Source: Paramacrobiotus metropolitanus (taxonomy: Eukaryota > Tardigrada > Eutardigrada > Parachela > Macrobiotidae). Taken from it: a DNA stretch of 64,000 bases. The translations under genes and the position numbers were made by a program. The notes under the pieces were generated by a model, which was given only the letters and a program-made list of their open reading frames with translations, searched no databases and had not been told where the DNA came from. The stretch lies in assembly GCF_019649055.1 (NCBI RefSeq), contig NW_026570236.1, positions 372,001 through 436,000 of the forward strand, read 5' to 3'. How positions within the stretch are numbered: the first letter of the stretch is position 1; each line of letters starts with the position of its first letter. Below are positions 291 to 40,150 of the stretch, one piece after another.

Positions 291-1342
291 TTATCGCGAT
301 CCAGTCCGGTTACGAGCAAGGGTTACAGACGCTTGAAACTGTTTTGGATGAATAACCTCCAAAACCTGCAATCAAAACAAACTGATCGCAACTATCTGTA
401 TACAAAGTGATGAACAAAGGATACAATTTGAGTAAAGTTTATTCAAGAATATGTTATTGCATGTTAATGCATTGCATGTTATTTTACTTAACTGTCGAAT
501 TGCTACGCATTAAAGGTCATTTATCTGGAATTTTTAATGACATACATTGCTTATTCCGCTGCCATCGGGGGTGAATGAAAATGTTACTGCATATTCAGCG
601 ACGTCAACATCGTTTTTCCAGTAGGAAATTCGTGAACGGAGAGTATACCGATCGGGCATCATATATGTTGACTTGAGCTTGTATCCCGGGGCTGTCTGTA
701 GGGATGATGTTTCGCCCAGAACAAAAACGCTGACAACATTGTACTTTGGATCACTCCGTACGGTTTCCTGCTTGTATTTTCCATCGCTTGTCTTGCTGAA
801 GATAATACTGGTCGGGCCATTGGCCACATTTTTTGGTACATCTATAAACATTTGCATAAGACTGCAAAGCTACTGTCTAATTATGGTGACTTTTTATCGG
901 CCAAATATTAATATTAATTTTAAGAATTTTTTATTGAATATTAATACGCAACACATTTTGTATAATGGATAACGTTTTTGTGAAAAAATTTATTTAATCT
1001 GGGAACATACATCAGCATATGTCCATACGTCCAGGTCATACTCAAATTTGTAGAATGCTTACCTAAGATTCCGTTAACGAATTCTTCCATAAGATGTCGG
1101 CTCTCCAAGACGAAATCATATTGTCCCAGGTAAGGATCTAATGACCAAGAGGAATTTCCAGATTGTATTCCTTGGGCTTGGCAGACGTGTGCTATAATTT
1201 AAGAGTATAATACACAAACAAAGGAAAATGCATAATACAGTATGCCACTGCATGCATAAACAGAAGTATCAATAAATTTACCTGCACCGATAAAGTATAA
1301 GATCGTGATAAATAACAGGCCCCAGGTTGAACAGCGCGCCAT
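291..1342 (-). CDS. Secreted protein of unrecognised family, copy 1
   Basis: I do not recognise this family. Four exons (1342-1282, 1191-1063, 841-546, 365-291) join in frame to 186 aa. Exon 1 encodes a signal peptide (MARCSTWGLLFITILYFIGA). The mature part has a GNSSWSLD..LGQYDFVL motif, then VANGPTSIIFSKT, TLRSRIS and SGISN, and ends in a short exon with KQFQASV and GSR-stop. Intron phases are 1, 1 and 0. The same four-exon structure and motifs occur in the two copies at 3.4-4.7 and 6.9-8.0 kb, which is the main support for the model. The alternation of polar and hydrophobic residues and the lack of helix-rich segments suggest a beta-rich extracellular domain (inference). This copy is the most diverged: its last exon lacks the YT end. 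It has no GT31 remnant upstream that I can see. Confidence 0.75.
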
Positions 1343-3408
1343 TTTGCAAATGCAACAGGTTTGAAAAACTGTCAGAGCTTTAAAATGCTTTTGTTAGGAA
1401 TACCACGGAATGTACAATACCTCTACATAATATGCAGATACGTATCATGTCCGTGTGATTTTATTGATATTAATTTACCCTTTGGCAATATCTAATCAAC
1501 GTTTCTTATAACTACGTCAGTGCTTCTGCAGATTTCCTCTAAATTTATGCAGCTGCCAAGTGTTAAAAATGCTTAGAAAGGACTAACGATCGATTAGAAT
1601 CCCGATGTTTGCCAGTAATAGTCAAATCTTCAAATGCCACGTCTGGTATTATAGAAGTTTACAGGAAGAAACACTTAAGTCAAACTGCCAGAAATTCGCA
1701 GTACACAGGTATGTACTGCTAATGTCATATGCAGTTACAAGGAAACGTATTCTGCTTACCGATATTCGCACCACGCATTATCTAGCTTGAGATTAATTAT
1801 GTATCCTCAGAGCCAACGTATTGTACAGCTCTTTTCGAATAATTTTATAATATCAATTCTGGAAAACTAAAATTGCAACGTACAGGCTCGAGGTTGTCTG
1901 TAGGCAGCCGAAATCCCAGTTTTTTCTGTTGTTGTGAGTTGTGACTTTGTTTAAGTCTATAATCCTATTCAGGCAGGCATAAGTATCAGTTTTGTTTCTA
2001 ATTGTACGCTGTTTCACATGTACATGTTTCGGAATTTTAACGAGAAGGCTTGTTTGTACACTCTGTACACTACAGGTTCAAATATATATTACAGTTCTTA
2101 ACGATAACTGAGATTCTGTGCACTTATAAATCAGCTTTACGTTCTAGAGGGTTTTCTGTGATGTGCTTGTGAGTTTTGGTGACCTCAGGTTAATTTACGA
2201 TTATTTGCGAATGTTCTTCATTATTTTCCGCAGTTTAGTGTGGGTTAATATTGGGCAAAGTAAGGCAATCAATAAATCGGTTATGCCAAAGGTCACACAG
2301 TAAAGCACAACGACATGTTTTTCTATCTGTGATTGCCTAAAATTATAGGAGGTTAGACAGCGGTAAGCATTCCGGTGATAACTTCCAAGGAAATCAGTTT
2401 CTGTTTACAGAGTGATGGTGCACGGCGCGGAAGGTGCTTTGATGTATGCTTGCAATGCTCCCGAAATGTATTTTTTAACTTGCAGTATATTACTGTATTT
2501 CAAAACAGTGACCGGGACCTTTAAGCGTGGAATGCACTTTCTGAACTGGAAAGTATTAGAAAACAGAATACTGACTGGAAAACTCCGGTCTGTCGATATC
2601 TTTCGCCCTAGACGTGCGACATGTGCTCGTCGAACCCAGAAAAACGTTTCTAAGCAGAAGCGGAAACGTGCTTGACTGACAATCAGCCGGCAGAGACAGC
2701 ACTTTTCTGCCGTCACAGCCGGCAACGGACACAAATGTATTCGCACAGTCGTTTAACCAGTAATTAATTAATTAAGTTTCGCGACTTGTTACTAAATACC
2801 AATTCGGCCAAAACACACAAATTTTCCAAGACACAACAGTCCGCAACGATTATTCACATTAACCGTATAATAATACTCTTGGTAAGCGGCACAAGGTTAC
2901 CAATTTATTGTATTAATGAGGCTGGACTAAATATTAATAATATTTTTTATCGGATGTTTTACCTGCTTGTATATAAAATAAATAACATCTTTCCTTGGCC
3001 TCATTGCAAGTTTGACACAACAAAACCGGCGAAGATAATTACTCCAGGGACAGTCAACAGCGATAGACTGTATTAGTATTATTGTCATTATTTAGTTACT
3101 GTCAGCCGGTACCAGAAATAAAGTTTTGGTTGTGTACTGCAAATTAGCATTAGATGCAAACTTTTTACAGAAATATTCTGGGATGTACGTACAGATGTTC
3201 TGGGATGTCTGGGATGTCTGTATTCTGGGATGTCTGTACACATTCTGACAAGAACAATAAAGAAATGAAGAATATGATAAAAGAAGCAACAGAACACAAA
3301 TATAAAATGTCATTAATACTAAATCGTGCAAGGAAGTCTCTCTACACCCAGCACTCGCATATTCTACTATTAAAGTCTGATAGTATTACAAATTTTTAAA
3401 ATTATTTA
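1343..3408. other. Intergenic, no gene recognised
   Basis: About 2 kb between copies 1 and 2 of the secreted family. Short open frames occur at 2405-2746 but show no motif, splice context or paralogue. The only structure I see is a short degenerate tandem repeat around 3176-3245, built on TTCTGGGATGTCTG. It probably includes the promoter of copy 1 just above 1342. Confidence 0.5.
3176..3245. repeat. Small degenerate tandem repeat (minisatellite)
   Basis: Four imperfect copies of a unit close to TTCTGGGATGTCTGTA lie head to tail. It sits downstream of the terminal exon of secreted-family copy 2 and has no coding potential. Confidence 0.6.
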
Positions 3409-4667
3409 CTATGTATAACGAGATCCAGTCTGGTTGCGCGTAAGAAATACGGATGCCTGAAACTGCTTTGGATACAGCACATCGACCACCTGCAAAAAAA
3501 GTGCAATGCTTCGCTGCCATTGTAAAAACACGTGGTCTAATGTTAATCAGAAGAAAATAATTGATTTTAACATGTAAAGGATGACGTGTGCAAATCAAAT
3601 GTACCTATTCTCTTGTTGTATGCCGGATCAAAACGTTGGAGCTATTGTATGCAATATGCAGTGCATACATAGCCTTGTTTACATATTACTCGTATATATG
3701 CGAAATACTGTAATCAAGGAAACTTGCAAAATTCCAAACAAATGGTCATTAGTTAACTGTAAAAGGGCCGATTGTTAAAAAATCAAGGACTATCTGTATT
3801 CTATAGCAGCGTTGGCTTTGCATATAGTTTGAACGAAGTACTCGTAGAAAAATTATTTAAGTTACTGATTCCACTGGCATCGGTGTTGAACGAAAAAGTT
3901 GCTGAATATTCTGCTGTCGTATTATCTTCCAGGTAAGAGATTCTAGAGCGCAGCGTGAACTGGTCCACCATGGTAAACGTTGATGTCAGCCAGTGTCCAG
4001 GCCGCGATTGTACTGATGTCACACCCAGGACAAAGGGAATCGTCACATTATAGCGTGGATCAATTCGTACGGTTTGCTGTTGATACCGGCTTCCGTCTCG
4101 GGTTTTGCTGAATATTATACTGGTTGGTCCATTGGCCACATCTTTCGGGACGTCTAGAACAGAGAATTTTGCGGGTTTTAGCACTTCAAGTCTTTAACCA
4201 TCGAAAGTGGATGTAATTTGTCGTTTATGTTGTTGCCTCTATGATGGCTCTATCCAAATCCAGTTTCCTGTTTAAAGTTTAGTTGATACTGAGCAAGTTG
4301 TTAACTATGTGAGCCGCTGAAGCAACTAGCGAACTTTCATGAACGCCGTTTTATGATGTACAAAGTAAAATTAGTAAGCACTTACCCAAAACGCCGTAAA
4401 TCAGTTCCTCAATAAGATGCCGAGTTTCCAAAACAAAATCGTACTGTCCAAGGAATGCATCCAGAGACCATGACGAATTTCCCTGTGGGCCTTGCGCCTC
4501 GCAAAGAGTTACTGGATGGAACGATATGAACAAAAGAACTTTTAAATTCTTCACATAAGATACACAACTATAAGAGTAACTGGTGGTTATAAGGATGGCC
4601 CCTGTTGCTTACCTGCATGTAGAGTGCACATAACCGGCACTAATATCCAGGTAGTTGGACAGCGCAT
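3409..4667 (-). CDS. Secreted protein of unrecognised family, copy 2 (splice donor lost?)
   Basis: By homology with its neighbours the exons are 4667-4613, 4511-4386, 4153-3861 and 3489-3409, giving 184 aa. Exon 1 is a signal peptide (MRCPTTWILVPVMCTLHA). The body carries QGNSSWSLDAFLGQYDFVL, DVPKDVANGPTSI, TLRSRIS and SGISN. The terminal exon reads VVDVLYPKQFQASVFL...GSRYT-stop, nearly identical to copy 3. The third donor is odd: in copies 1 and 3 the bases after SGISN are GTATGT, whereas here they are TTAAAT. Without that donor the message reads on to a stop at about 3801, with an unrelated 18-residue tail. The copy could therefore be a new C-terminal variant, use a cryptic site, or be decaying. 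Confidence 0.65.
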
Positions 4668-5289
4668 TGTAGCAAATCTACAGACTACGATCGAAGCTCC
4701 CTTTGAAATTGCCTTCACGCCCGCTGTACAACGTATACCAACTATAGATATGTAAATTGTTTTATAAATAAGATAGACCAAATTGATAAATCTGATGCTA
4801 ACCACTACGACCCCCAGTTTAATTATACATGTACTGATTGTACTCGTACTAGTGATACTCGTACCGGATCATAATTTTGTGTCCGTTAACATTAGTCCAA
4901 ATGCGCATCGATCGTGGCGTAGTAATAAATCGCCAGTAGGTAGAAATTTTGTACGTAAGCCTAGTGGTCATTGACATTCCTATAACCATGAAATAGATCA
5001 AGACGTCGTTAGTTTTTTCCAGTAGAAACATTGCGCGATAATTGGACAAAATTTTTGATTTAGTGTGAAGTGTGCCAGTAATGTCGGCAAACTCGACCTT
5101 TTCTAATGCGTATGTACCATTAAAATGCGAATAACTGCCGCTTACAATCATAACTGCATCATCGTATGCATGACACAAGTGCTATTTCCATAAAATGTTT
5201 TCAGTTTGTACTTCGAAGTCTACGGTTTTTTAACAATTTTGCTTCGACAAAGAAGCAAGTGCAAAAATGCTTGCACTTCGTAATTTGTG
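4668..5289. repeat. Duplicated flank shared with 8.2-8.5 kb
   Basis: The stretch around 4880-5100 matches 8225-8440: both contain AATGCGCATCGATCGTGGC, a GTAGGTAGAAATTTT block and GTGGTCATTGACAT in the same order. Each copy lies between the secreted-protein gene and the 3' end of a GT31 gene (or its remnant). The unit that was duplicated was therefore secreted gene + spacer + GT31. A 109-codon open frame on the minus strand here is not conserved in the other copy. Confidence 0.6.
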
Positions 5290-6060
5290 TAAATAGTTTG
5301 TTTCGTTTTGCATCCAAATTAAAATCGGTAAAGAACAGACCTTGTGGGCCCGGCTCTGAACGTCCTAAATCCTAACCATAAGTACCTAAACATTTTCCTG
5401 TCTGCATCATTACAGCGTCTTTAAAAGCCAATCCAGTGTGCAAATAGTACTCTGTACGTTGTTGTGCATTCCACACACCAGCTCCTGTGCATTCTGGAAG
5501 CCTCTAGTAATGCACAATCCAACGTTTTTTGCCTAAAGAAATGTCTGTTAACCATAACGGGCCATTAGGATAGGAAATGCACAGGACGAGCATCTCAGTC
5601 AGTCAGACTGTCGAAGCGTAAAGGTCATGACACTAAACATTGATATAAAATCTGCCTTGTGTATAAGAAGAATTAGATATACAAATCGTACTGTTCTCGC
5701 CTCCGGTGTAATGGGTCAAAAATTTATGGTCCAAATAAATAGGTTAGCACTATCTTTATGTTTCAAAGCACAACTTCCGTGTTACGCATCGTCCTCCCAA
5801 AAATACACAGTTCGAACAAGCTTTTTACAATTGCCGGTATCCATTTTGTTGGATCGGACAACATATTCTGGAGAAAGGGGATCACAGATTCCAGATCGAA
5901 TGCTGCGTCATCGTCCGCTTTTAAAAGAATAAAACAATGGACTGAGCTAAATTTACGTTAGCAATAAGCAGAAACGGCGGGAAATCTTTGTATCGTGCAT
6001 ACAGTTCCAGTGGTTTGTTAGCAAATATGGATCTTGTCACGTTTAGTTCCTTAACCTGTA
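5290..6060 (-). pseudogene. Broken GT31 glycosyltransferase copy
   Basis: This is a degenerate copy of the GT31 gene at 8.7-11.1 kb. At 5290-5600 the last-exon sequence is recognisable (KKRWIVHY against NKRWLVHY) but contains a stop directly after it. At 5690-6060 a remnant reads PLELYARYKDFPPFLLIANV (compare PELCAKYNNAPPFLFIAV of the intact exon 3). It runs directly into LLKADDDAAFDLESV (the DDD exon 5), so exon 4 and both introns are missing. Stops and frame changes exclude a working enzyme. The DDD triad survives, so the decay is fairly recent. Confidence 0.75.
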
Positions 6061-6896
6061 AAACTGAAATTATGAATAATTAATTTAAATTTACATGATA
6101 TTACATGTAACTTAAAGCGCCGGTACAAGTGCTCTCCATTTGTAAAACTGCAAAGGACACTTGAACCGCTTTTAGCCAAAGGGCTCATGCGGTATCGGTT
6201 AGAAACCATATATTTGTCTGTAAGGGCGATCGGCTGTTTGACGCCGAACTATACAAATACATACGTACCAGTGAAAGAAAACCATTAAAAGAAAACCATT
6301 AATTTATTGTCAACGGTCTTCCATTTTCCAGGTCGCAAAACGGTGCGGAATCTCTTACCTTAACGGGATATACCTGTCAGCAGCATGCCAGTACTATTAC
6401 ATTACGTATTGTAATAGTATTATAATATAATATGATATAATAGTATTTATATTTGTAGCTACTTTGAGAATTTGTTGTGCGCCTCGGTTGTGTTGAGGCT
6501 CATTAGAGAGCCTTAAATGGTTTAGGCATTTCTAGTACCAGTATCTTGGTTTTTTCTGTGCATTCCCAAAGTGCAGGACCCGCAGCCAGGGAACGCCGAT
6601 TAGAGGCACCAAACAGTGAGAAACAGCTTCTGAACAAGGCATTTTTTGAAATTTTTGACTGCGGTACGGCATAGAAATTAATTTTCAGTTCCATAACGCA
6701 GATCCGCTCCACATTACCTTGGAATATGTACCCATATTACAGGTTCGTACTTGCCCCTAAAAACAGTAGAACATAACTACGAAAGAATAAATTTAAAAAT
6801 AACAAACTCAGACAAATGTTCTGTAACGTTTACTGTGAAAAGAAGTCTTTGCACCAAAAGTGTGCGCATTTTGGTATTGTAAAAACACAAAATTAA
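6061..6896. other. Intergenic, no gene recognised
   Basis: About 0.8 kb of AT-rich sequence between the GT31 pseudogene and the third secreted-family gene. The missing 5' exons of the pseudogene (stem region, IRxTWG exon) are not recognisable here. Confidence 0.4.
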
Positions 6897-8044
6897 TCAC
6901 GTATAACGAGATCCAGTCTGGTTACGAGTAAGAAATACAGATGCTTGAAACTGCTGGGGATACAGCACATCGACCACCTGCAAAGCAAAAAAAACATGTA
7001 TTGCTTGTGTGACATTAGTCACATTACAGATGATTATCCGGTGTTACGTTCAACGCGTACGTACAACAAAATGAACAAAATTAATGTCATACATACAGCT
7101 GTATTGTATCTGTATGTATGCTGCCTTTCATACCATATGAAAATTGTTAATTACTCGCATCGCAGGCAAATCCTAAAAAAATCAATAAGAAAACCTGATG
7201 CTGTAACGACACAATACATACATTACTGATTCCACTGGCATCGGTGTTAAAGGTGAAGGTTGCCAGATACTCAACAGCAGTATTGTTTTGAAGGGAAGAA
7301 ATTCTAGAACGCAGGGTGAACTGGTCCACCATGGTAAAAGTTGATTGCAGCCAGTGTCCAGGCTGAGACTGTGCGGATGTCACACCCAAAACAAAGGGAA
7401 TCGTCACATTATAGCGTGGATCGATCCGCACGGTTTGCTGTTGATACCGGCTTCCGTCGCTGGTTTTGCTGAATATTATGCTGGTCGGCCCATTGGCCAC
7501 ATCCTTCGGAACACCTAACAAAGTTTTCGGATAATATATTTTTTATTAACGGCTAGAGATTTAATATCTAGCATACTTTAACAAAAACAAAAGTATGTCT
7601 GGCTCTTAAACATTTAAATTTACTGCATTCATTATTCTAAAAATAGTTGATGACTTTAAACAGCAAAGATCTTCAAATTCGCATTGTCACATTTGTCATC
7701 TTATTTACAGTGCTTATTTCGTTATCTAATGTACAGAGTATTATAAGTATACAGTTAGTACCGGAAATGCCATAAATCAGTTCCTCCATAAGATGTCGAG
7801 TCTCCAGAACGAAATCGTACTGTCCAAGGAGTGCATCCAGAGACCATGACGAATTTCCCTGTGGGCCTTGCGACTTGCAAAGAGTTGCTGGGTACCATGA
7901 CATAAACAAAAATGCCTTTTAATTATCTATACTTGTAGGATACACAATAATAGCGCTGCTTATTTGTTAAAACTCTGCGTTGACTTTACCAGTGCTTAGT
8001 ACAGATATAACCGCTGACAATATCCAGTTGGAAAGACGGTGCAT
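6897..8044 (-). CDS. Secreted protein of unrecognised family, copy 3
   Basis: Four exons (8044-7990, 7887-7762, 7514-7222, 6977-6897) give 184 aa with every splice signal intact: donors GTAAAG, GTACTA and GTATGT, and acceptors ending in CAG, TAG and CAG. Exon 1 is a signal peptide starting MHRLSNWILSAVISV. The remainder matches copy 2 closely (GNSSWSLDALLGQYDFVL, VPKDVANGPTSI, TMVDQFTLRSRIS, DASGISN, VVDVLYPQQFQASVFL, GSRYT-stop). Asn-Ser-Ser and other NxS/T sites in the mature part are possible N-glycosylation sites. It lies directly downstream of the GT31 gene on the same strand. This is the best-preserved member and the reference for the family. Confidence 0.8.
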
Positions 8045-8653
8045 TTTAGCAGATGTACAAATCTGTACTTCCTTTGGAAAACTGATTTCGTTTTATCTAC
8101 AATCTTGTTCGTCTTCACATAGATAAAACAGGCAAATTAGTTACATTTTATAATGATGAATATTAAGAAGGACAGACAACATCTCAGTTTAATTACACAA
8201 GCCAGGACAGTATCAAAATCTGTGTCTGTTAGCTGTGATACAAATGCGCATCGATCGTGGCAGTTTAACAAATTGCCAGTAGGTAGAAATTTTATTAGTA
8301 AACACAGTGGTCATTGACATGTCTATACTTAATTGTGAGACAGAAGATGACGGTAAGTTTTGCAGTACGAAGTTGTATGAAAACCAGGCAAAATTTTGAA
8401 TTAATATAAAAAAGGCGCGCCTACTAACAATGTCAGCAGGCCCCGAATATCGAGTTACTGTAATTCAGCTTATTCATGCAGTATTACGCTAACCTCACAA
8501 TCAGTAATCTGCAAATAGCCGCCGAATACAGGTGCTGCTCTTACGTGCTGCTCCAATTAAACCATGACAGATTATAAAACATTCCAACAGTCAAGTTTCT
8601 AGCTCTAATTTTATGGCTTTGACATGTACGCAATATGAATAACTATTTCTCTT
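8045..8653. repeat. Duplicated flank shared with 4.9-5.1 kb
   Basis: Spacer between the third secreted gene and the GT31 stop codon. The 8225-8440 part is the partner of the 4880-5100 segment. It marks one boundary of the tandem segmental duplication. Confidence 0.55.
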
Positions 8654-11118
8654 TTATATCACAGCAAAATCAGAATCGGCTAAAACTTTCCCGGTTCTGT
8701 TCTGAACATCCTTAATATAAAATTGTCGGGCTGTTTCGTTATGTCGACTTTGAAATGCCATCCAGTGTGGATTATCCATGTAGTACGTTGTTGGGTATTC
8801 AACCCACCAAGGATTGTACGGTCCTATTTGAAGACTCCAGTAATGCACTAGCCAACGCTTGTTGCTTAAAGGAACTTCTGGTGCCTTGTTAACCGCCATG
8901 ATGGGGCGTTGGGATGGGAGTTGCACACGACGGACACCCTTAATTTTAGTAAAAACGTTTTCATATTACTGGCATATTGATAATAAAAAATGTTAAAATG
9001 TTACACAGCCCAAAGGCCAGGATAATCGTCATATATAAAAACCCTACCGTGACAGCAAAGGCGGACTTTGGCAATAAAATACATTACTTTGTTCTACGTG
9101 TTTCCCGAATTTTGATTCATACAGTCCGGTTATTTGCGCTGGTAATACCTTTATGTTTCGAGCCACAAATCCCGTGAAGTATGCATCATCCACCCAAAAA
9201 TGCGGAGTTCGTAATGACATGTCGTACATTGGTTTAACTAGTACCTTGGGGACGAAATATGCATTTCCATAACAAAACGGCGGATAGACCTTTACGGGAT
9301 ATTCTTCATACTTAATGCACCACGTGTATGTTGTGCTTCTAGGAACCTGCTCGACGGATTCGACATGGTAACAATATAAGCTTTTTGCCGGCACCCATTT
9401 GTCTGGTTCGGACAAAATATCATTCAGAAAGGTTATCACAGTTTCCAAATCCAAAACTATATCATCGTCCGCTTTCAAAAGAAAATCATAACCGACGTTT
9501 TCGCAGTAGGTTGAAAAATATCGGTAGATGGAGGTTTGTTTAACCGTGAGGTTTCGATAATGGTCGATGTGACTGTTTTGCACAATATCGTGATATTTCT
9601 CGTTTTCGGCAAATATCTGCACCATATTAACCAAAGGCGTTTAATAAGAGTAACTGCGCAAAGTAAAGTCAGAATATTATCAGAAGCATTAATTACCTCG
9701 TCCTGCACAGTAGAATTTTCGGGAGATCCGAGGAAAAAAACCAAAGACGCGTTACACTTATGGAGGACTTCTCGATGCCCCCAAGTTTCTCTTATCTGCG
9801 TCACAGATTTAAATCACTGCATTCAAATATGGAAGACCAAACAACGGTCGGTTTTTGTTACTCACGCCTTGTCGATGCTGGGAATTATTCACCGCAGAGT
9901 GGACAGCAATGAACAGGAAAGGCGGGGCATTGTTGTACTTTGCACACAGCTCCGGTTGGTTAATGATGAACTTGGACTTGTCGGGATTAATATCATAATC
10001 TGAAGAAAACATATTATTGCCGTTAATATAGGTACGTAAACACGTGCCGGGGCAAGTATTATTCGTCCGTTCAAAAAAAGCAAGCCCTACTCGCATGAAC
10101 CGCTCCCAGCTACAACATTACACGTTGTATTATGAGGTTCGGGGTCGACAATTTTTTGCTGTTAATACTGCTCAGTTTTACGTTGCAGAACGATATATCA
10201 ATATGGAAATTTAACTCTCACAGTCACAATTACATAAGCTGTGGAAAATCGCTTGAATATAATCTTACTTTGAGCTTCTTTTAGCATAATACTTCTTTCT
10301 GCGAGCGATAGGTTATTTAGCAGTTCCTGTCCAGTGGAATCAATGCCACTTTCCGGGATATCTATATCGGTCACAGAGAACAGATCTTCGTAAGCAGGAC
10401 CGTTGGGGTGCTCTGCCTTCAGCCCTTGCACAGCCAGGTTCATGCATTGTCGATAAGGCAAGGACGAATCAACTTCTGAAATTTGTAAAAAATTAGTCAT
10501 TCTGTAAACCCTACACGGACGTTTATATGCAAACATAACTTATGTTGTTCCAAATTCCTGGTGTGGTAAATATTTACCGATTGCGTTATGCGGCATGGTA
10601 TGCATCGTAAAGTTTTTGGCACTGCCGCCCAGTGTTTCATGGACAACGTCATAAACCAGTATAAAATAGCTGACATCTTTACAGGTGCGAAAAATCCAGG
10701 ACTGCAACTCCGTTACGATATTTTTCGGGATTTCTCCCGGTTCGGCATCGGCGTTACTGCGTGTGGTAATAACGTGGGATAAATCTTCCTCTTTCAGCTG
10801 ATAACGGACTGTATCGGCCGTGTAGACTAAAATAATTTTGCAGTGGCATTTGAGCGCTATGCTGTACCATTCTGCGCGAATCTCTTTTCGAAAGTTCACG
10901 GTCGTATTGACGGGATGTAAGAAGATAACTCCTTTCGGTTGGAAATCATCATCCACCACGCAAGATTCTGGAGCATGTTCCAGCCAGGGAAATTCCTTAC
11001 CGAAAATAATGATTTTCTGGGTGTCTGAATTGTACGTGAAGATGAACGATACAATGTACGCGGATAAGAAGAATATAATGATAAGTAAAACAATCAAAGT
11101 TTTGATTTTTAAAGTCAT
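8654..11118 (-). CDS. GT31 beta-1,3-glycosyltransferase, type II membrane protein (copy 1)
   Basis: Six exons (11118-10578, 10475-10269, 9999-9866, 9795-9697, 9616-9149, 8938-8654) encode 577 aa. The start is the first ATG; the frame opens further only through a TTG. Residues 6-30 form a signal anchor, as expected for a Golgi type II enzyme. The C-terminal catalytic domain shows IRETWG (295-300), a DHYRNLTVKQTS...Y segment, the metal-binding DDD (about 377-379, KADDDIVLD), YPPFCYGNAYF and WVDDAYFTG (about 468-475). These are the GT31 hallmarks (beta-1,3-Gal/GlcNAc transferase type; sugar donor not predictable). The N-terminal half (GVIFLHPVNTT...RAEWY) looks like a worn second copy of the N-lobe without DDD. 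The next gene on this strand, 600 bp downstream, is a secreted protein. Confidence 0.85.
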
Positions 11119-12038
11119 AAGCTTGACAATTTCGGCCGGAAAACGGATTTGCAGGTCCAAGCTAAACAAATTCTACTCTAATCATTATTCGCATTAAATG
11201 TGAATTATATCGGCACCCATAAGTCCCATCACAGTGAATGCAAACGGCATATCATATTCAGTGTAAAGCCAAAAGGAAGTTAAAAGAATATTATCGTTTG
11301 TGATAGAGAGTAAAAACGCTGGCATTAAACTCTACAACATTTGTCGTAGCTGGAGTCTCGGTTTTGTCCCTGACGTAAGAACTTTATTACGTACAGAGCG
11401 CAAAACATGGCGCTACAAATTCCTGTCATATGTACGAGTAATTTGTAATGATCGTAAGCACAGCTTCGAGCCAGTGTATATATCCCGCGGTCGACAATAA
11501 ACCTACACTTGTTCCATACAGCTCGAATTCGGACATGCATATACATACCGATATACATACATGCATATATACATGTATACCGATTTTTAGAATTTTTAAG
11601 TAAACAACCAGAATTGACTATGCAAATGTAGAATGACTGACCGCTTTTATTAATAGGCATTTGTGAACACACAGCTGCATATTAACGGCCAGGTTTAAAT
11701 TCCCATGTTAACTGCTGGAGTAAAACACAGCAGATTTATGGGTTACCTGTACCGTGATGAATACTATCAAAACTATTACCAAACGGTAAAGACAAAGTAT
11801 GTGGTGTTTGTCGCGCTTGGGTTTCGTCATTCGAGAAGTGTAGCTTTTAAAAATTACTTTGGTATAATAATAATAATTTAGTTAATTCTGCGCCATAAGT
11901 AACAATATACCGGATATTATTACTGGATTTTACGAAAAACGGAAATTGTGCGCATAAGGGATCCGACAGGAACAGGCAAGAATTGGCTAAACCAGCACCA
12001 ACAATCAATGGTAATTAGCTGGGTTACAGCAAATTCAG
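11119..12038. other. Intergenic, no gene recognised
   Basis: Spacer between the two intact GT31 genes. It contains a run of ATACAT/GTATAC dinucleotide-like sequence at about 11535-11582 and probably the promoter of the first GT31 gene above 11118. Confidence 0.4.
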
Positions 12039-14666
12039 CTAATAAATATCAAACAGTGAATCTGACAAATTAGTGCCAGTCCGCTTGTAAATGTCATTTA
12101 GGAATATTTTCTTGATACTGTCGTTATGACGACTCTGGAATGCCGTCCAGTATGTGTCAAAAACTGTTGCATCACCCCAGGTATGCACCATCCATTTTTT
12201 CCCTTCGATAATTTCTTCCGGTGTCATGACCTTTGGCAAAATGGGACGTTGATGAGGCAGCTGAATGCGATGTACTTCCTAAACCAAAGACTAATGTAGG
12301 GTATGTGAGTAATGTGACTGCTATTATAGTTGTAAAGAATTCTTCTACTCTGTGGACAACTTTTTAATTTTCCTCCTGCAGATTTCTGCCGCCTCCATAT
12401 TAAGCTTAACTGCAAAGTTTTTATTGAACTTAACGAAAGTTTTAAGAGCGCGCAGCAAAAATAATAGTTTTCACCAAAACAGCTTCGGGCGTAAAGGAGC
12501 TGTGAAAAAGCCCAATAGCCACTGGTTTCATAGGCAGACAAAACTGTATCGTTTTACCAACAGAAATCGCCTGTTCGATAGTATTTTACCTTTATGTTTC
12601 TTGCAACAAATCCAGTGAAATAAGCATCATCAACCCAAAGCTGCGGTGTTCGCACTGCCATGTCGTACACTGGACGCACCAAATCTTTGGTAAACAAATA
12701 TCCATTTCCATAACAGAACGGCGGATACGTTTCGCCGGGATATTCCTCGTACGTTATGTACCATTTAAAGCTTTTCTTCCTGGGAACCTTCTCTTGGGCT
12801 TCCAAATGGAAACAGTAAATACTTTTCGTTATATTCGGCATAGCAAAGGTTAAATTCTTCAAGAACGACAACGTTGTCTCCAGATCAATCACAACGTCAT
12901 CGTCGGTTTTCATTAAAAACTGATATGGAATCTCATCACAGTAACTGGTGAAATACTGGAATATGCCAGTGTGTTTAAGCGTTAATTGCCGGTAATGGTC
13001 AGTATAGTTTTGTTGAATAACGTCGCGGTGGCGCGCGCTTTCCGCAACCACCTTGTAAACAGAAAGTTATTCAGAATAACTTTGTTAGTTTTTACGGTAA
13101 CTTTGATACATACTTCCTGCTGGACGGTAGAATTGTCGGATAATCCGAGAAAAAACAACAACACTGCCCCCAATCTCTGGAGCAGCTCGGGATTACCCCA
13201 GGTTGATCTTATCTGCAATTACATATACCCCGTAATTAATGAATTAATGGCAATCTTAAAATACATTCATTTTAAAGAATATCACTATATGACTATATCT
13301 GTACTAGCAACTAATAAAGTTATAATTATTTTATCCGGTGATACATAACTGTAAGAATAATTTAACCCAATCTAGCAATAGTACCTCTTCCCGGAGATCG
13401 AAATGATGGATGGCTGAGTGCACGGCAATAAATGCGAAAGGTGGAGAATTTTTGAGGGAGTCCGTGCATAATTCGGCTTGATTGATTATGTACTGAAAAT
13501 CGTTACTGTTTATTTGTTTTCCTGGAAAATAAACAAAATACGATAGCTAATGCGCTTAATAATCTTCAGCCTTAGACATTTACAATAGTTGCAATAAACA
13601 CATAACCATTATTAAAATAAATAAACCATATTGTGGAGGTTATAATAATAATTTCTCTAGCTTCGTACTCCATATCTTGCATAATTCTTATTTTACTTAA
13701 AAAAATGCAACCTTGGTCTTCTTTAAGAAGAATGCTTCTCCGATCAGCAGGCAAGCTTTCTAGTAACATTGTCTGAGCTTCGGAATCCATTTCGATAATA
13801 GGTGCGTCCGTGTCCGTTATCGACAACAAATCGTAGTTGCCCAGATCGGAAATGCTTTCCTCTCGCGGAGTTGGTACCTTCGCCATGCACCAATTAAAAT
13901 GCGCACCAATGAGATCGGGAGCAGTAACTGCAATAACAGTTTACAATACTGTACGTCAACATCGGTAAAAAATGTTCTGATTAATAAATTTTGTAAGTAT
14001 CACTTTTGATTAACTAATAATTTTGTTAACAGTGTCTATATATTTTTTATGAGATGCTGCTAGAAAATTTGTCCAGTGAAGTGAGAATATCACTACATCT
14101 GTAAATGTGTGGGGTGAATTTGTACCTGTTCCTGGAAGGATACGGAAACTTGTGCCACCGTGTGCAAATTCACTCAAAGAATTCTCCGTAACGTTGTCAA
14201 GAAATCCAAAATATTTGGCAAGTTTGCATTTCTGTTTAATCCACTGTTGCATATCCCCAATATTTTGGGCTTCATTCGACGTGTTCAGAAATAAAGTGTT
14301 TTCCAGTTTGTCAGGTTCATTAGTTGGTTCAGAATCAAAAGCTATAAAAATAATTTTGTATTGACATTTGACTTCCACTTTACGCCACATAGTACGCAGC
14401 ATATTCCGCAATTCTGTCGAAGTATTCGCAGGGTGAAGAAATATAACGCCTTCCGGTTCGTAAACGTTTTCCACCAGGCATGTTTTTGGTCTGCGCTGTG
14501 ATTTTGGCAATGACAACAAACTGCGAAGTCCTTGTTCTTGTACACGATAAACCGGTGTGGGACGTTTCCGGGACAATTTGTTTATATGAACGGAGAGGAA
14601 AAACGAAGAAACAGTCAAGAGCACGGTAAACAGTATTCGTGTCCTGTATCCGAAGGAGGAATACAT
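12039..14666 (-). CDS. GT31 beta-1,3-glycosyltransferase, type II membrane protein (copy 2)
   Basis: Six exons (14666-14126, 13927-13712, 13521-13385, 13212-13114, 13051-12590, 12278-12039) encode 564 aa. Phases are identical to the GT31 gene at 8.7-11.1 kb, so the two are tandem duplicates. A signal anchor covers residues 9-26. The catalytic part has IRSTWG (299-304), KTDDDVVID (DDD at about 381-383), EEYPGETYPPFCYGNGY and WVDDAYFTGFVARN. The N-terminal half repeats a degenerate N-lobe (EGVIFLHPANTS...RTMWRK) followed by WIKQKCKLAKYFGFLD, where an active enzyme would have DDD. The exon 2 donor (GTTGCA) is weak. A 336-bp spacer upstream separates it from the hydrolase gene. The acceptor sugar is unknown. 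Confidence 0.85.
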
Positions 14667-15002: not shown

Positions 15003-16740
15003 CTAATGGCTGTTTTTGATTGGTCTGTGTTCAAGAAAGTCCACAATAACAGGCGCAACGGTTTCCGGGCGGTCCAAATGTACGTGATGGAGGCCGTCGA
15101 CGACAATGTAGGCAAACTGAAAAACAGTCAAAAAGCGCACATAATTTCACTGCGCATGAATATTTAACTTAATATGACATATTTCAGTTGCTCAGCGCAT
15201 GGACTTACATGCGAGCAATTTTTCTGGTACATGTCTTTGAATTCCTTCTCAACTTCGGGGGATTCGTAGTTTTGTGCACCTGCAGCTCTAAATGAAACGT
15301 TGGCTTCTTATCATTATTTTATATTACAAAGTTTACATTTCGTTTTACAGTAAATAAACCAGATTCTGTACAGGTATCGGAATAAAATCGTTTTACAGTA
15401 AATAAACCAGAATCTGTTTAGGTATCGGAATAAAATGTTACGCATAGCAAACTACTTAAAAGGAATTCAGGATAGACTGCACGGTACTAACTTGATAATC
15501 AGAAGATCGCATTTGAGCTCCTTCAAAACATTGCGATGCTGGTCCAAGTGCATCCGAAATAACGGAGGCTGCATTCATACAATACGAGAAATCAGAGCAT
15601 GCAATGCTCAACTGTCTTTTCAGATCGTTGCACTGGTCTTACAAATGTTAATCTGCTGTCCCGGTTGATCAAATGTTCATCTAGAAAACGCGAACCGAAG
15701 GTTTGGAAGAGCGCAGAATTGCATTTCAAGCGCCAAATTACCTGCTGTCGTGCCGCTGTTCTGCCGCATTCCCCTTTCCAGGATTTTCGCTGCCGATTGC
15801 TCGTTCATGAACGCCTTGCTTTGGCCATGCCACCTATGAAATGCCGAGTTGAAGCGGTTGATGAATGTTTTCGCTTTGCAAAATAGAAAAATGGTTTCAT
15901 AAAACTTACCATTGTTCCACTTGATTCTTGGACATGATTTCCGGCTTTTGTGGGGCAACCGTTTTCTGGTTATGGTCGGCCAGGGTCATGATGGCGTTGC
16001 GAAGGACTTTGTGCGTGGTCCCCGCCGGTTCTGATAACTGCTTGATGACATCCAGCGCCACCACAGCTTCCACTTCCTCCGGGAACAGAGCGCCATACTG
16101 TAAAAACAAGGAATAAAATGGTAATAAAAATAGCAGTCCCGCTTTGCGAGTAATCTTGCAGTATTATGTATGTTTAAAAAATCTCGACGGTACCATCAAA
16201 GCCACCCCGGCTCCCATGCTGTGCCCGATTAGGGTAAACTTTTGCCATTGCAAAACTGTAATTTGAACACGAATTAAACAAAGTAACACAAGCAACAGAA
16301 ACTTTGATTGCTTTGCTTTTTGACCAACAACTGAAGTTTAAAATAAGATTACCGTTAACAACCTCGCGCAGGTCCACCAGCCAATCGGTGATGTGGTAGG
16401 CGGCACCTGGTCCGCGGGGCGAACTGTGGCCGTGTCCGGGCCAGTCGATGGCGACGATCCACCAGTTTTTCGGCAGCAGTGGTATCAGATTCACATACGA
16501 ATTACTGTTGTCCTGCCATCCGTGCAGCAGCAAAACGCGTTTCACGGGTTCTACTCCGACCGGGCGACGTTGCTGGCCAAAGATTTCCCCGGCCTTGACA
16601 CGGTACGCTGTTTGCTCCAGAACTTCCGTCATTTTATTTATGATCCTCTTTACCGAAAAACCAGCGATCGTAAACACTTTCACGACTAATCCGGTTGCTA
16701 CTCTTTTCAGTGTCTTGCTCGAGTATCGCAGTGTCCGCAT
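15003..16740 (-). CDS. SERHL-like serine hydrolase (alpha/beta hydrolase fold)
   Basis: Eight exons (16740-16353, 16255-16194, 16097-15910, 15833-15742, 15680-15643, 15568-15492, 15287-15209, 15116-15003) join in frame to 345 aa. Fold landmarks are RVLLLHGW (oxyanion loop, about residue 73), IDWPGHGHSS, the nucleophile elbow GHSMGAG (Ser about 142), NRDSRL, DLLIIK and the C-terminal DGLHHVHLDRPE that supplies the histidine. Order and length match the serine hydrolase-like (SERHL) family; the substrate is unknown. The start at 16740 adds a basic N-terminus (MRTLRYSSKTLKR) that could be a mitochondrial signal. A later ATG at 16632, in better context (A at -3), would give 309 aa, the usual SERHL length. 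Exon 5 is only 38 nt. Confidence 0.85.
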
Positions 16741-17427
16741 TTGATGCGATCTGATTTCTGTGCCTCCCGGCGCATTGCTACCGCTAAACCAATGACTTCG
16801 AAACCAGCGCAAACCGGAAACTATCAAATTTGCTTCAAATCTGGTTCCGACCCACGTGTACAAAGTCACCTTCTGAGTGCTAGTAATTTATAAAGCCTGC
16901 GCGCATTTTACATTCATAAACAGAGGAGAAATTTAAAGTGTTTTATACTGTCGGTTAATTATTCATGATATCCACATATATCGGTTTAGTTCAAATCGAA
17001 GCTATTCGAAATACGGATTCCGATTTTCTAAGGCACAAGATTTAATTGTGTTATCTTTTGCAATTTTTTTCAGCTAGACCATTTTGGGTAGAACCGCACG
17101 ACGAATAAATTGTTTTAGCTCAAAAACGTAATTTTGCCATAAATCAAAAATTATGTTTGAAGTGGCCCCAGGCATACAAACGTTAGCGTCGTCGAGTCAT
17201 CGAATGTTAGGGCATCGCTTACGGTCTTCAAAACGCCGTCGCCCATCATTTGGGAAAAACATGTTTTTCAGCCAAAAAATTCTCTCAGATGACTCACAAA
17301 CAAGGTTACGGAAACCAGCTTGTTCGGTTAGAGAAATAGCGTCAGTACAACGGTCAGATCTGAATTTTCCAGTTACTGTTCAGACAATCTAGAATTCAGC
17401 AGCACGTTGCTGTATACGCTTTTGACA
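16741..17427. promoter_or_regulatory. Divergent promoter region, hydrolase / P450
   Basis: 687 bp separates the start of the minus-strand hydrolase from the start of the plus-strand P450, so both promoters must lie here. I see no clear TATA box or other defined site. Confidence 0.4.
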
Positions 17428-20217
17428 ATGGATTCACCCGCATCCCATAACCAAAGGCAAAACGGCACCACCCAGTCGCACGCGCTTCTGCTATTCGGGT
17501 TTCTCCCATTAAACTGGGCGCTTTTTGCGGTCGTCGTGATCGGTTTCGCGACATACTACTACTATAGGCGGCCGAAAGGTATTCCACCCGGACCTAATGG
17601 TAAGAAGTATTTTGTTAAAAAAATGTCCAGCTGTTACTTACATCTGTTTTTCATGTGCTTTCACAGGGGTTCCAGTTCTTGGCTACACCCCTTTCCTTGG
17701 CCAGAAACCGGCAGAAAAGGTCCTGGAACTTAGCAAACAATACGGGAACGTCTTTAGCATCTACCTGGGAAGCCAGTTGACGGTGATTTTAAACGATTAT
17801 GACGCAATCAAAACAGCTTATAACGATTACTCTGATATCTTCGTTGACCGCAAACCGGGATTTGCACACCGAGCCCTCAATGGTGCCTCCAATGGGCCGA
17901 TCAACGGCGGGCCTGACCTTCGTGTGCGAGGTATCATATCATTCAAAATCTAGCACATAATTACTAAAGTTACTATTTTTTAAACTGTATTTGTAAGATG
18001 CGGCACTATAAAATAATTTTAACGCAGCTACAAACTGTAGTTTTTTACGAAAACAAAAAGAACCGAAAATGAGAATAATCAAATACAACAAAAAATTCGT
18101 TCTTTTCGTACGAGTATTTTATAAGTGGAACTTGTAAGCAGCGCACATTCATATCAGTGACGATGAAACTGAAATTTAATAAATTAAGTTACTGTAATTA
18201 CATCAAGTTTAGTATTGAACAGTGAGTATGTACAATAGCTACTAAATTTTTTTATTGGGAATACACGATTTATTAACAGACTGCAAGGCAGCACCCTTTT
18301 CACGCGCTAAATTGACAGCGCAATATTTTAGCAAAGCAAAATGCGGGTGGAGAATATTTTCATAAATTTTTTCCCGTAACGGGAATTGTGCCCATCACGT
18401 TTTTAGCGTTTTTTTTGAACCTAAAACCTGAATAACTAATTAAAGACAATTTTTCGCAGGCTTGACGATGACCAATGGCGATCAGTGGCGCACCATGCGC
18501 CGTTTTGCTTTGACTACCTTGCGCAATTTGGGAATGGGGAAATCGCGTCTGCAGGAGCGAATCCTCGAAGAAATTGACTTTTTCTGCGAAACACTACGCA
18601 GCAAGAAGATGAAACCAGTAGAACCGGACAACCTGATGATTGCTTGCATAGCTAACATCATGTTCGCGGTGTGCTTCGATAAGCGCTTCGATCACAGCAA
18701 TCCGCAGTTCAAGAGCATCGTGGACTTCCTGATCATCGCGCTGCCGACACTCAGTAACATTGGTGCGCTGCAGCTGTTCCCGTGGCTTAGACTCATCCCG
18801 GGAAAATTCCAAAAATTCTGGGCGACATTTCGCCGTGAGGTGACACAGCTGCGCAGTATATTTGCGGAGGAATTGGCCATTCATGAAAAGAAATACAAGG
18901 AGGAACATGGCGATGTCCGAGATTATGTGGATGCATTCTACGATCAGCAGCAAAAAGAAGGGGAGCAGGGCAGCACTCCAAATTATTTTGATGGTAATAT
19001 AAATGCCAATCCTTGTCTTTAATTTGTTAATAAGTACGTATTGTGATCAGGAAATCACGCAATGAAATTATTGCAGATGATGAATTACTAGTGGAAATAA
19101 GTAATTTTTTCGGCGCCGGTGCGGAAACAACCGCCACAACGATTACATGGGCGTACTACTTTATTGTGCGTCATCCGGACGTGCAAAAGAAAATGCAGGA
19201 AGAAATCGACATGAAAGTTGGACGGGGACGTCATGTCACCACGGAAGATAAGGGTAAAGCAAAAAGAAAGTATTTAATTCGTAAATTCACAATTTAGTAT
19301 TTACGAAGATTGAATATCACAAAATTACAATTTTTATGCGGACCAGCGTCTGTGATACCCCTTGTTCTACGACTTTTGTTGGTTTATAGCGAAGCTGACC
19401 TACGTCGAGGCGGTATGTTCGGAAGTGGCTCGCATGGGCAGCGTGGTGCCTCTGGGCATTGGACGCAGTACCACGGAAGATGTGCAGATGAACGGCTACA
19501 CCATTCCCAAGGGGACCTACATCATGCCCAACCTGTGGTTTATTCATCATGACCCCAAACACTGGGGCCCAGATGCCAATGAGTTCAAACCGGAGCGATT
19601 TCTGGACAGCGAAGGTCGTGTCCTTAATCCTCCATCGTTCATGCCGTTTTCCATTGGTAGGTCGGCATTACTGTAGTTAATTACCTGTCACAAAATTAAC
19701 GATTCTAGCAAGCAGTACAGTAAGCCTGTGTGGATAAAAATAATAAATAGTACTGTTAGTTAGTTGATCTCCTTTAGGATGTCAACAAGTTCGCAGGCAA
19801 TTTTTACGGATAATAAATTCCTCGTGACTGCAAAACGACTTGGTTTAATCCCCTGATTATCGTTACCCAAATTCATCTGGAAATATATATATATATATAT
19901 ATATGACTAAGTTTACCGTACACACAAATGCATGATAATATTATCATGAAATTTTGATGAGTTTTAGAAACTCGCATAAAAGTGCTCGTGTGCAAACCGT
20001 AACCCACAGTGACTTTGTGATTGTTTTCACAGGAAAACGCCATTGCCCAGGAGAATCGTTAGCCAGGATGGAGGTCTTTCTGTTTGTGACCAATGTCTTG
20101 CAAAACTTTAATCTTCGTCTGGAAGAAGGCTACACATTGAAACCACCGGAAGACTACATCAACGGGCTCACAACACGGCCGCCAAGATTTGACGTCATTT
20201 TCGAACCACGGGACTGA
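17428..20217 (+). CDS. Cytochrome P450, CYP2 clan (copy A)
   Basis: Six exons (17428-17599, 17667-17930, 18460-18993, 19035-19253, 19390-19656, 20033-20217) give about 546 aa. An N-terminal membrane anchor (LNWALFAVVVIGFATYYYY) is followed by the proline hinge IPPGPNG. Later landmarks are WRTMRRF (helix C), the I-helix GAGAETT (about 351-356), the ExxR pair SEVAR (408-411), FKPERFL, and the haem loop FSIGKRHCPGES with the ligand Cys about 490. These place it as a microsomal monooxygenase of the CYP2 clan; the substrate cannot be read from sequence. The junction of exons 3 and 4 is uncertain: the frame is kept only by a 41-nt intron (18994-19034). The acceptor at 19050 would shift the frame. 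Confidence 0.9.
19881..19903. repeat. (AT)n microsatellite
   Basis: About eleven AT units in the last intron of the P450. Confidence 0.85.
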
Positions 20218-37554: not shown

Positions 37555-38653
37555 CTAATACCCTGGTTGTGTTACGATGATTTCGGAATAAGATGGGGGA
37601 TCATCAGAATAAGGTGCTTCCGTCCTTTGGGCATTCTGCAAAGTTTCCTGACCTTTTATAACACTTACGAGAGTACAGCACATAACGCCTGTTCCGAAAC
37701 AATTCCGCGCCAAACAATATGCCGCAACGGCAATGCCGGCATTTGCCGATGCGAAGAACGCTATTAATGCCACTTCCCAGTCCCGGATCAACCCGCGAAA
37801 ATACAGTATAGTGCACAGACTCATCGTTGTGGAGAACACAACGGCTACGCGACAGGTCGTCGCGGGACATTTGGTTTTACGGACATTTCGTCTGAGGACA
37901 ACTCGTTTTTGTGGCAAATAGCCATACGACTGTTCGTTGCCATAAACTTGTCGATAATTTTCTGGCTCCCCAAAAGCCGTGCGACCAAATGTCACATAGC
38001 AAAACGGCTGCAAAACGAGTTGTCCCAAAACAAATTAGCCGCTGCGACGAAAAACATGTGGCGAAATGTCCCACGACGAAATGTCCAGCGACCACTTGGT
38101 CTGTCACGGTGGAGAACACTACTGAACTCAGGTTGAAAATCAAGACGAGAGCATAAACAATGCTGCATATTGCGCAAACACCACCAATCACAACAAACCA
38201 GGTCCAGAAGTGATTAATGTGGTTGAACAAAGCTTCGCGGTGCTGTTGAGAATTAATTTGCCCCACTGCCAACCATGCACATATTACGGCAATTACGACG
38301 GCGATGTCTGTCGTCATCAGGATCGTGCGTTGCATGTTGCTCAAATAGCCTTGACCTTCCGCGGCAGCTGTAGGGATAGTAACTGCAAATATAAGGATTA
38401 AAAATTCTGTGTAACGCTCAAGATTCAATGTGGTACTATTACCAAAGGTAAGCAGAAATTCGACAGAGAGGTAGCGGAACAGAAAGCTCAAACCGATCCA
38501 TTTCAGTGTAGACCTGGCTGTCTCCACAATAACATTCGTATACAAACGGAGCAATTCGGGAAAGCTATTCCGATCTAAACCATTGTCGACGGCAGTTTGA
38601 GCGCCTATTTGACCCAAATATCTACCAATCGATTCGAAACTCAGGCCAGCCAT
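37555..38653 (-). pseudogene. Four-helix membrane protein A1, interrupted by a transposon
   Basis: Exon 1 (38653-38443) starts MAGLSFESIGRYLG and includes the first hydrophobic segment (WIGLSFLFRYLSVEFLL). After a 60-bp phase-1 intron, exon 2 (38382-37555) carries three more membrane segments and ends in a cytosolic tail with PPSYSEI. A paralogue in unit B (42432-43276) is intact at 255 aa. Here, after NLSSVVFST, 280 extra bases (37840-38119) shift the frame and introduce a stop. The rest of the protein (TMSLCTILYFRGLIRDWE...) continues intact beyond the insert. I found no splice pair that would remove the insert in frame. The family is not recognised. Confidence 0.75.
37829..38119. mobile_element. 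280-bp MITE-like element with 11-bp target site duplication
   Basis: The repeat GTGGAGAACAC occurs at 37829-37839 and 38109-38119; the paralogue has one equivalent site and no insert. The ends form an imperfect inverted repeat (GCGACAGGTCG...GGGACATTT against the reverse complement GTGACAGACC...TGGACATTT). Deeper inside lies a second inverted pair (GACAACTCGTTTT / AAAACGAGTTGTC). No transposase is encoded, so this is a non-autonomous DNA transposon. A target duplication of this size fits Mutator-type transposition, but the superfamily is not proven. Confidence 0.75.
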
Positions 38654-39402
38654 GTTATGAGCAAATTAAAAACAACGATACTGAAGAAATTACTGTGGAC
38701 AGTTACTAATTCGACAGCTGCCTGTAAAACGGGATATTACAGCATGATATCTAATATTTGAAATCCTCTACAAAATTGAAATTTAACTAAATTTCGTGTA
38801 ACTTTGTGTACACATATCAAGCGTACAATACGAGCAAACGATACTCGTTTTGTTGTTGTTATTATCCTTGTTTTACTCAAGCAGCTAGAGCTGTGCCTTA
38901 AAATTTTTAATGATCGGTTGCAGTTTTGTGATTCGCTGGCAGTCTAGCACAGTTTTCAGGTTGACTACTGGCCTGCTGTCGTTGGGTGCCACTAGCAATA
39001 AGAAGCATCATACTTTGTATCAGCGTACGAGAATAAAAACTTATTTTGCCGAGAGCTGAACCTGTACTAAGACAAACAAACAAAGTGTGGAATGGGGATC
39101 TCGTGCAACAAACATATTTTTACGTCAGCCAAATAGGTATCTTAAATTCTGAGACGCCGATATGAGCCCGGTACGTATAAGAAACGAGTTACTGTAGGCA
39201 GTTATGAACCTGTCATTGATGATTCACGTGCAGTAGTCGGCCGAACCTGAAGTGCAGCGACGATGTTTTATGTTTCGCTATTCGCGAGCAAATGTTCAAC
39301 GATCTTCTTACTTGCCGTCTGAGTTGCCGACAGTATTTTATTGTAGTCTTTCCATAAGTTTTGCTCGGGAAGATATGAATATAAGCAGTTAATACTGCAA
39401 TA
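38654..39402. promoter_or_regulatory. Divergent promoter A with conserved block
   Basis: 749 bp between two membrane-protein genes that start in opposite directions. Positions about 39069-39180 align with 43695-43805 in the equivalent promoter of unit B, including GGGGATCTCGTGCAACAAA and TTTTACGTCAGCCAAATAGG. The TTACGTCA core is close to a CRE/ATF site. Confidence 0.5.
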
Positions 39403-40150
39403 ATGGAGCGAAGCTACGGAAACACTGATCAGCTGTCAGTTGACGTTACCGTAAGGTTATTAGATGCCCACTGCGCGAGTTTGCTCACCTGGGCTGGGAT
39501 CACCGTAGCAGTGCAAATTCTGGATTATTTTTCCGTTGGCCAGTGGTTCTTACCAGGTAGAATTTCATTCCTGTATCTTATTTTTACAATATATATGTGA
39601 ACAACAATCGCATTATATTCATTCAAACCGGAATCGTTATGGTTTAGGTGAAGTAACCAACTCCAACGCCAGCATATTTCAATGGTCAACGTTATTGACG
39701 ATTGCGAATCTCGTAATTATCGTATCTTATGTATTTCTCAATCTTCACGCGGTTCTGACTGGTTCTTCGCAGACCGCTCATAGCGGCACCTCGACAGATT
39801 CGGGAAGTCCAGTGCGGTCCAAGGTGATAATCACCGGCATTTTAGTGATATCCTTAGCGATTGCTTACGCCGGCATTTTCGTTGTTAACTCACCTGTGGT
39901 GTTGGAGATATTCAAATCGCGCACAAACGCCGGAATTGCCGCTTTAACTGTTATCCTGTGTTTTCGAGGTGTGATTAGCGGTTATGCAACGTTGTTGGTT
40001 GCTTGTCTGATGTCCTTGCATACCGGTGCACTGGTCGCAGTGTTTTTCCTAACCACATATGCGGCACAATCCGGTCTGTGGTGGGGAAGCACTCTGCGTT
40101 TGCTTGCAGCACAAAATCACAATGCCACACACTTTAAACAAGGAGCTTGA
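39403..40150 (+). CDS. Four-helix membrane protein B1
   Basis: Two exons (39403-39556, 39648-40150) give 218 aa. A polar N-terminus is followed by LLTWAGITVAVQIL (helix 1), a phase-1 intron immediately after WFLPG, then three further hydrophobic segments (about TIANLVIIVSYVFL, IITGILVISLAIAYAGIFVV, and ATLLVACLMSLHTGALVAVFFL) and a short C-tail. The layout, intron position and an R-G motif before the last helix are shared with the other two subfamilies in this block, so all belong to one unrecognised superfamily. It has a paralogue at 43982-46335. The predicted location is a membrane; function is unknown. Confidence 0.75.

Follow-up and report, generated by a model that had tools for sequence, protein, structure and literature searches.

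A family of putatively secreted proteins probably related to the tardigrade SAHS proteins, and its GT31 neighbours, in Paramacrobiotus metropolitanus

The locus and its local duplication

The window, i.e. the whole stretch of 64,000 nucleotides that was analysed, corresponds to C16:372001-436000 in the genome of P. metropolitanus (169.8 Mb in 533 contigs). Its left end carries, as the initial annotation had proposed, three homologous genes for putatively secreted, SAHS-like proteins on the minus strand. Gene A (291-1342; exons 1282-1342, 1063-1191, 546-841 and 291-365) has GT/AG splice sites and encodes 186 aa, and gene C (6897-8044; exons 7990-8044, 7762-7887, 7222-7514 and 6897-6977) encodes 184 aa, whereas gene B (3409-4667; exons 4613-4667, 4386-4511, 3861-4153 and 3409-3489) has lost its last splice donor and would yield a product of 184 aa only if the last exon were joined. 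In these gene models, the splice sites of which were inferred from the sequence, all three have four exons with intron phases 1/1/0, and hydrophobic N-termini can be read in all three. The conserved four-exon structure claimed for the family is confirmed for A and C but not for B, the last donor of which reads AAC/TTAAAT in place of AAT/GTATGT in the other two genes (the slash marks the exon end).

The same strand carries three genes of the glycosyltransferase family GT31, two intact and one broken, in agreement with the first description. GT2 (8654-11118) and GT3 (12039-14666) are open through six exons, and the features of GT31 membership are present in both, i.e. a Pfam Galactosyl_T domain (E 9.9e-32 and 4.2e-41, respectively) and the acidic metal-binding DDD motif (KADDD and KTDDD, as read from the sequence). 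The nearest solved relatives of GT2 are B3GALT5 (E 3.6e-17) and B3GNT2; GT2 and GT3 both match these GT31 enzymes, but GT2 differs from them by a long N-terminal region of about 260 residues ahead of the match, for which Pfam gave no family match at its cut-off. The third gene, GTpsi (5507-6055), is in pieces that lie in different frames (5507-5542, 5832-5939 and 5939-6055), and the genome search returned it as a GT31 match containing a stop. The secreted array is flanked on its left edge by one more GT31 gene, the N-terminal region of which is similar (L001 1267-4124, C16:353.3-356.1 kb). Read along the coding strand, the order is GT3, GT2, C, GTpsi, B, A, and to the left of A there are six further genes of the secreted family, of which one is plus-stranded; no GT31 match lies between these six, and a strict alternation of secreted genes with GT31 genes, as originally described, is not what is found.

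The remainder of the window contains a 48-base unit in two tandem copies that are 94% identical (15340-15435) and several open reading frames, of which 16177-16887 (-), 18444-19019 (+), 49804-50598 (-) and 51603-52124 (+) match the Pfam families alpha/beta hydrolase, cytochrome P450, G-patch, and CHORD plus CS, respectively, while four others of 193-262 aa (37880-38665 (-), 39509-40147 (+), 42435-43013 (-) and 47208-47792 (-)) have no Pfam match at E <= 0.001.

The duplicated spacer reported at 4.9-5.1 and 8.2-8.4 kb was recovered as a block of 112 bases upstream of B (4873-4984) with a second copy upstream of C (8216-8327), about 79.5% identical, and a genome search that skipped very common words located it at these two places only. 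The start-to-start spacings of the two copies are nearly equal for the secreted gene (3361), the spacer (3343) and two GT31 pieces (3333 and 3554), and thus indicate that a single tandem duplication, about 3.3-3.5 kb in size, would have carried all three together, so that the proposal of a gene pair that moved as a unit appears to be correct for this one event. Afterwards, one GT31 copy would have decayed and gene B would have lost its last splice donor. When B is read on past exon 3, a stop is reached after no more than about 20 residues, and its last exon differs from that of C by one non-synonymous and six synonymous changes, so that the loss of the donor looks recent; alternatively, it may be an assembly error.

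Selection on the secreted proteins had been postulated from conserved motifs, and the dN/dS ratios are in accord with it, being 0.19 for B-C (dS 0.50), 0.13 for A-C and 0.12 for A-B (Nei-Gojobori, own script), with the dS of about 2 for the last two pairs near saturation. Exons 2-4 of B and C are 85-90% identical and exon 1 is 71% identical. Their introns, at 63.5, 64.9 and 68.6% identity versus 60.3, 63.3 and 66.9% in shuffled sequence, have drifted to about shuffle level, and the 112-base block is better kept than these; it is a candidate promoter element or trace of gene conversion. The possibility that an open frame in the block represents a small exon was dropped, as on reading the two copies differ at many residues.

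The secreted family in the genome and its relatives

A genome search with exon 3 of B found 17 places, and two further queries raised the family to 19 exon-3 loci, both counts being lower bounds. Nine of the loci are clustered at 357.8-379.5 kb of C16, all but one of them on the minus strand, and the other ten are dispersed over C13, C5, C6 (two), C63, C18, C164, C53 (two) and C37; the family would have grown by tandem as well as dispersed duplication. One of the two C6 loci carries two stops. The other, C6:2663826 (L005), is repeated letter for letter over 81 exon-3 residues by the locus C18:3824 (L007), which lies near a contig end and is without the start of exon 3; C18:3824 may have been copied in part recently, or it may be a duplicate produced by the assembly. 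Sixteen members were modelled, leaving out C18, C6:2627556 and C53:676172; exon 2 was found in 15 of them (not in the C6 member), and exon 4 was used in 15 (not in B). All 16 have a phase-1 acceptor at exon 3, and all but B have a phase-0 donor after it. A, B and C belong to this wider family at E 1.6e-32 and group together firmly in a tree of the 16 members (100/100), in which 7 of 13 inner branches are open, and therefore no order of duplications is drawn.

Searches with single sequences gave no Pfam match for A and B and no PDB match for B, the Pfam Lipocalin/FABP families matched none of the 16 members at E <= 10, and three members had single weak Pfam matches, each to a different family unrelated to FABP. 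Because the searches with A and B were empty, a profile of the family was built from the genome, and its matches do not support the view that the secreted protein is unrecognisable. The top PDB match of the 16-member profile is RvSAHS1 (5xn9, E 7.5e-6), followed by weaker matches to RvSAHS4 (5z4g, 0.029), FABP9 (0.056 and 0.091), gastrotropin (0.15, twice) and intestinal FABP (1.2); seven of the eight sequences up to E 10 belong to the SAHS/FABP superfamily, the eighth being the uncharacterised 4q53 (E 0.18). Both RvSAHS1 and RvSAHS4, which belong to the SAHS (secretory abundant heat soluble) proteins of eutardigrades, are FABP-fold barrels (PMC5916119).

When the family profile was compared with a profile of four SAHS-type genes from this genome, the score was 44.4 over 132 columns; none of 100 column shuffles scored above 18.0, and a reversed profile gave 14.3. 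The score was 43.0 when A, B and C were left out, whereas these three alone reached 16.5, inside the shuffle range; the link of A, B and C to SAHS thus rests on the wider family. One ordinary FABP of this genome, taken as a single sequence, did not match the family profile (E 0.47).

Canonical SAHS genes are present in this genome. A 79-aa fragment of SAHS1 found 14 places at E <= 10, reaching E 0.38, among them seven on C3:446.9-467.2 kb (the best 57-62% identical), one on C78 and weaker others, including one at C16:157 kb that has the sequence of an ordinary FABP. The 19 loci of the window family were all missed by the fragment in this search.

Intron sites and the origin of the family

In three canonical SAHS genes, a core intron lies in a split Gly codon (phase 1) and another follows NNT/NNTEFK-type residues (phase 0); there is no third intron, the frame staying open as far as the stop. 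In the FABP gene at C16:157 kb there are a phase-1 intron splitting a Gly codon, a phase-0 intron and a phase-0 donor after NEMTL, the last of these sites being compared by eye, with the last exon of the gene not found. Two divergent SAHS-type genes have splice sites at all three FABP intron places: the gene at C78:513 kb (L014) has both SAHS introns and a third, in phase 0, before TYKVGD, and the gene at C13:843 kb (L015) has donors at all three places; it is possible that these two genes link the gene structures of FABP and SAHS.

In the profile alignment, which is blind to introns, the first core intron of the window family interrupts the residue that lines up with the Gly split in SAHS genes, and its last intron falls exactly at the third-intron site of the C78 gene. 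The window family thus has FABP sites 1 and 3 of three, whereas canonical SAHS genes keep 1 and 2; compared with SAHS gene structure, intron 1 is common in place and phase, intron 2 is absent, and intron 3 is matched only by the divergent C78 gene. FABP genes mostly have four exons and three introns at matched positions, with losses in invertebrates (PMC3796463, PMC7193176). The simplest reading of the gene models is one ancestor of the FABP type with three introns, followed by different intron losses. Late insertion had been inferred by Yamaguchi et al., who reported different splice sites in different SAHS paralogues (PMC3429414); for the genes compared here, differential loss would explain the pattern better. 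The intron argument for the origin of SAHS was not encountered in those parts of the literature on tardigrade SAHS and fatty acid-binding protein introns that were available.

Taken together, profile homology and shared intron sites and phases make it likely that the family of A, B and C has branched off, as a second and divergent line, within the superfamily of secreted FABP-fold proteins (SAHS) of tardigrades. Its members would thus be exported beta-barrels of small size that enclose a cavity. Further features of the family are purifying selection, an excess of sequons and the absence of an Arg (see below). It resembles SAHS in giving its best profile match there, in an N-terminus that, as read in A, B and C, may be a signal peptide, in its tandem clusters, its potential N-glycosylation and the phase-1 core intron in a Gly codon, but differs in being missed by the SAHS1 fragment, in lacking the carboxylate Arg, in having intron 3 in place of intron 2 and in its many more sequons. 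FABPs have two of their three intron sites in common with the family, and FABP9, gastrotropin and intestinal FABP are matched weakly by its profile; on the other hand, the family is predicted to be secreted, has no Pfam Lipocalin/FABP match and is without the fatty-acid Arg.

The family might also have been exported from a cytosolic FABP independently of SAHS, either convergently or as a separate event. The intron set 1+3, as opposed to 1+2 in canonical SAHS, would fit such a history, as both are subsets of the FABP set. Nevertheless, we consider it rather unlikely, since the best profile match is SAHS and not FABP, the single FABP tested does not match, and a phase-1 intron lies in the signal peptide region of the window genes and of candidate SAHS models (picked by hydropathy). 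It should be noted that phase-1 introns in signal peptide regions are common.

Glycosylation, GT31 linkage and possible function

That the secreted protein is itself glycosylated, as had been suggested, is plausible with respect to N-glycosylation, since the 16 members contain 64 sequons versus 22.3 expected by shuffling, and one sequon column is common to 9 of the 16. The motif GNSSWS had been singled out as conserved; it is common to A, B and C, but no sequon occurs at this place in the other 13 members of the alignment (the row of the C6 member is without exon 2). In RvSAHS, sequons have been reported around the cavity mouth (PMC11127935). A corresponding bias was considered for the window family and is not supported by the distances from the four portal tips: 18 of 60 sequons lie within 3 residues versus 19.8% of positions (p 0.04), 23 of 60 within 5 residues versus 31.1% (p 0.14) and 24 of 60 within 6 residues versus 36.7% (p 0.34), and Asn residues outside sequons are also near the tips (32.4% within 3 residues).

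The column of the carboxylate-binding Arg, the role of which in SAHS has been described (PMC5916119, PMC11127935), contains Arg in none of 15 family members (it is mostly Ala) versus three of the four SAHS-type genes of this genome, and this Arg occurs in many SAHS, not in all. A protective effect of SAHS proteins on liposomes and bacteria during desiccation has been reported (PMC11127935). Our best guess is that the proteins of the family fold into a ten-strand barrel in the ER, are N-glycosylated and then leave the cell, and that they either bind a different, non-classical small ligand or have a protective role outside the cell.

The initial annotation had interpreted a secreted gene and a GT31 gene as a repeated module and had raised an enzyme-substrate relation between the products. 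On such a reading, the linked GT31 enzyme would glycosylate the secreted protein and the pair would be kept together because its members work together, which appears very unlikely. Gene, spacer and GT31 were indeed duplicated together, the secreted proteins are rich in sequons, and the secreted array sits between GT31 genes on C16: the GT31 search gave 44 exon matches in the genome, the loci closest to GT2 being on C16 (353 kb, 377.8 kb (broken) and 384.6 kb), C117, C12 and C3:779 kb, and of the seven GT31 loci that are most similar to GT2, four are located here, to the left and to the right of the array. However, only three of the nine clustered members adjoin a GT31 gene (the leftmost, B and C) and six have none beside them, one of the two duplicated GT31 copies is broken, and so is a splice site of the partner gene. 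In searches that can miss weak matches, no GT31 match was found within 400 kb on the contigs of the ten dispersed loci, some of which are near contig ends; the nearest match is 441 kb away on C37 and 1.6 Mb away on C5, and among the listed matches there is none on C13, C6, C63, C18, C164 and C53.

In addition, the complex N-glycans of two other tardigrade species are described as being without galactosylation (PMC12167791), which, by analogy, speaks against a galactosyltransferase capping such N-glycans, though it bears neither on other GT31 activities nor on other species. As the pairing is local and no GT31 match was found near the dispersed members, it is taken as a by-product of one local duplication, the enzyme-substrate relation is unsupported, and the GT31 enzymes would most likely be ordinary Golgi transferases with no special tie to the secreted proteins.

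A chance resemblance to SAHS of a secreted family with another fold, which would accord with the single members without match, the weak E-values to SAHS4 and FABPs and the three FABP-unrelated Pfam families that appear once each with weak scores, is very unlikely, since the profile match extends from end to end and scores over twice as high as any of the 100 shuffles, and since the two families agree in the position as well as the phase of two introns.

Few extracellular protectants of tardigrades have been defined, and the SAHS proteins belong to these few. SAHS inventories are based on BLAST searches with known SAHS; one Paramacrobiotus SAHS has been named (PMC10799326), and 13 SAHS-like copies have been reported for P. 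metropolitanus from BLAST with SAHS1 (PMC13006486). In its widest form, which we put forward only as a tentative proposal, the second-branch reading would mean that tardigrades possess a second SAHS arm, with about 19 copies here, that was missed by SAHS1 searches, consists of sequon-rich secreted barrels without the fatty-acid carboxylate Arg and protects the extracellular space during drying via its cavity or a glycan coat; both arms would have arisen from one FABP gene by complementary intron loss, and the linked GT31 could make a special glycan cap.

If this is true, the complementary loss (sites 1+2 kept in canonical SAHS, 1+3 in the window family and all three in an FABP and the divergent SAHS-type genes) would count against the printed late-insertion reading of 2012 (PMC3429414), with which the pattern disagrees. 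Whether SAHS arose from FABP can be tested simply by means of the intron pattern. The SAHS inventory of the tardigrades would change if it had to include a related and similarly large family, which searches with known SAHS may miss.
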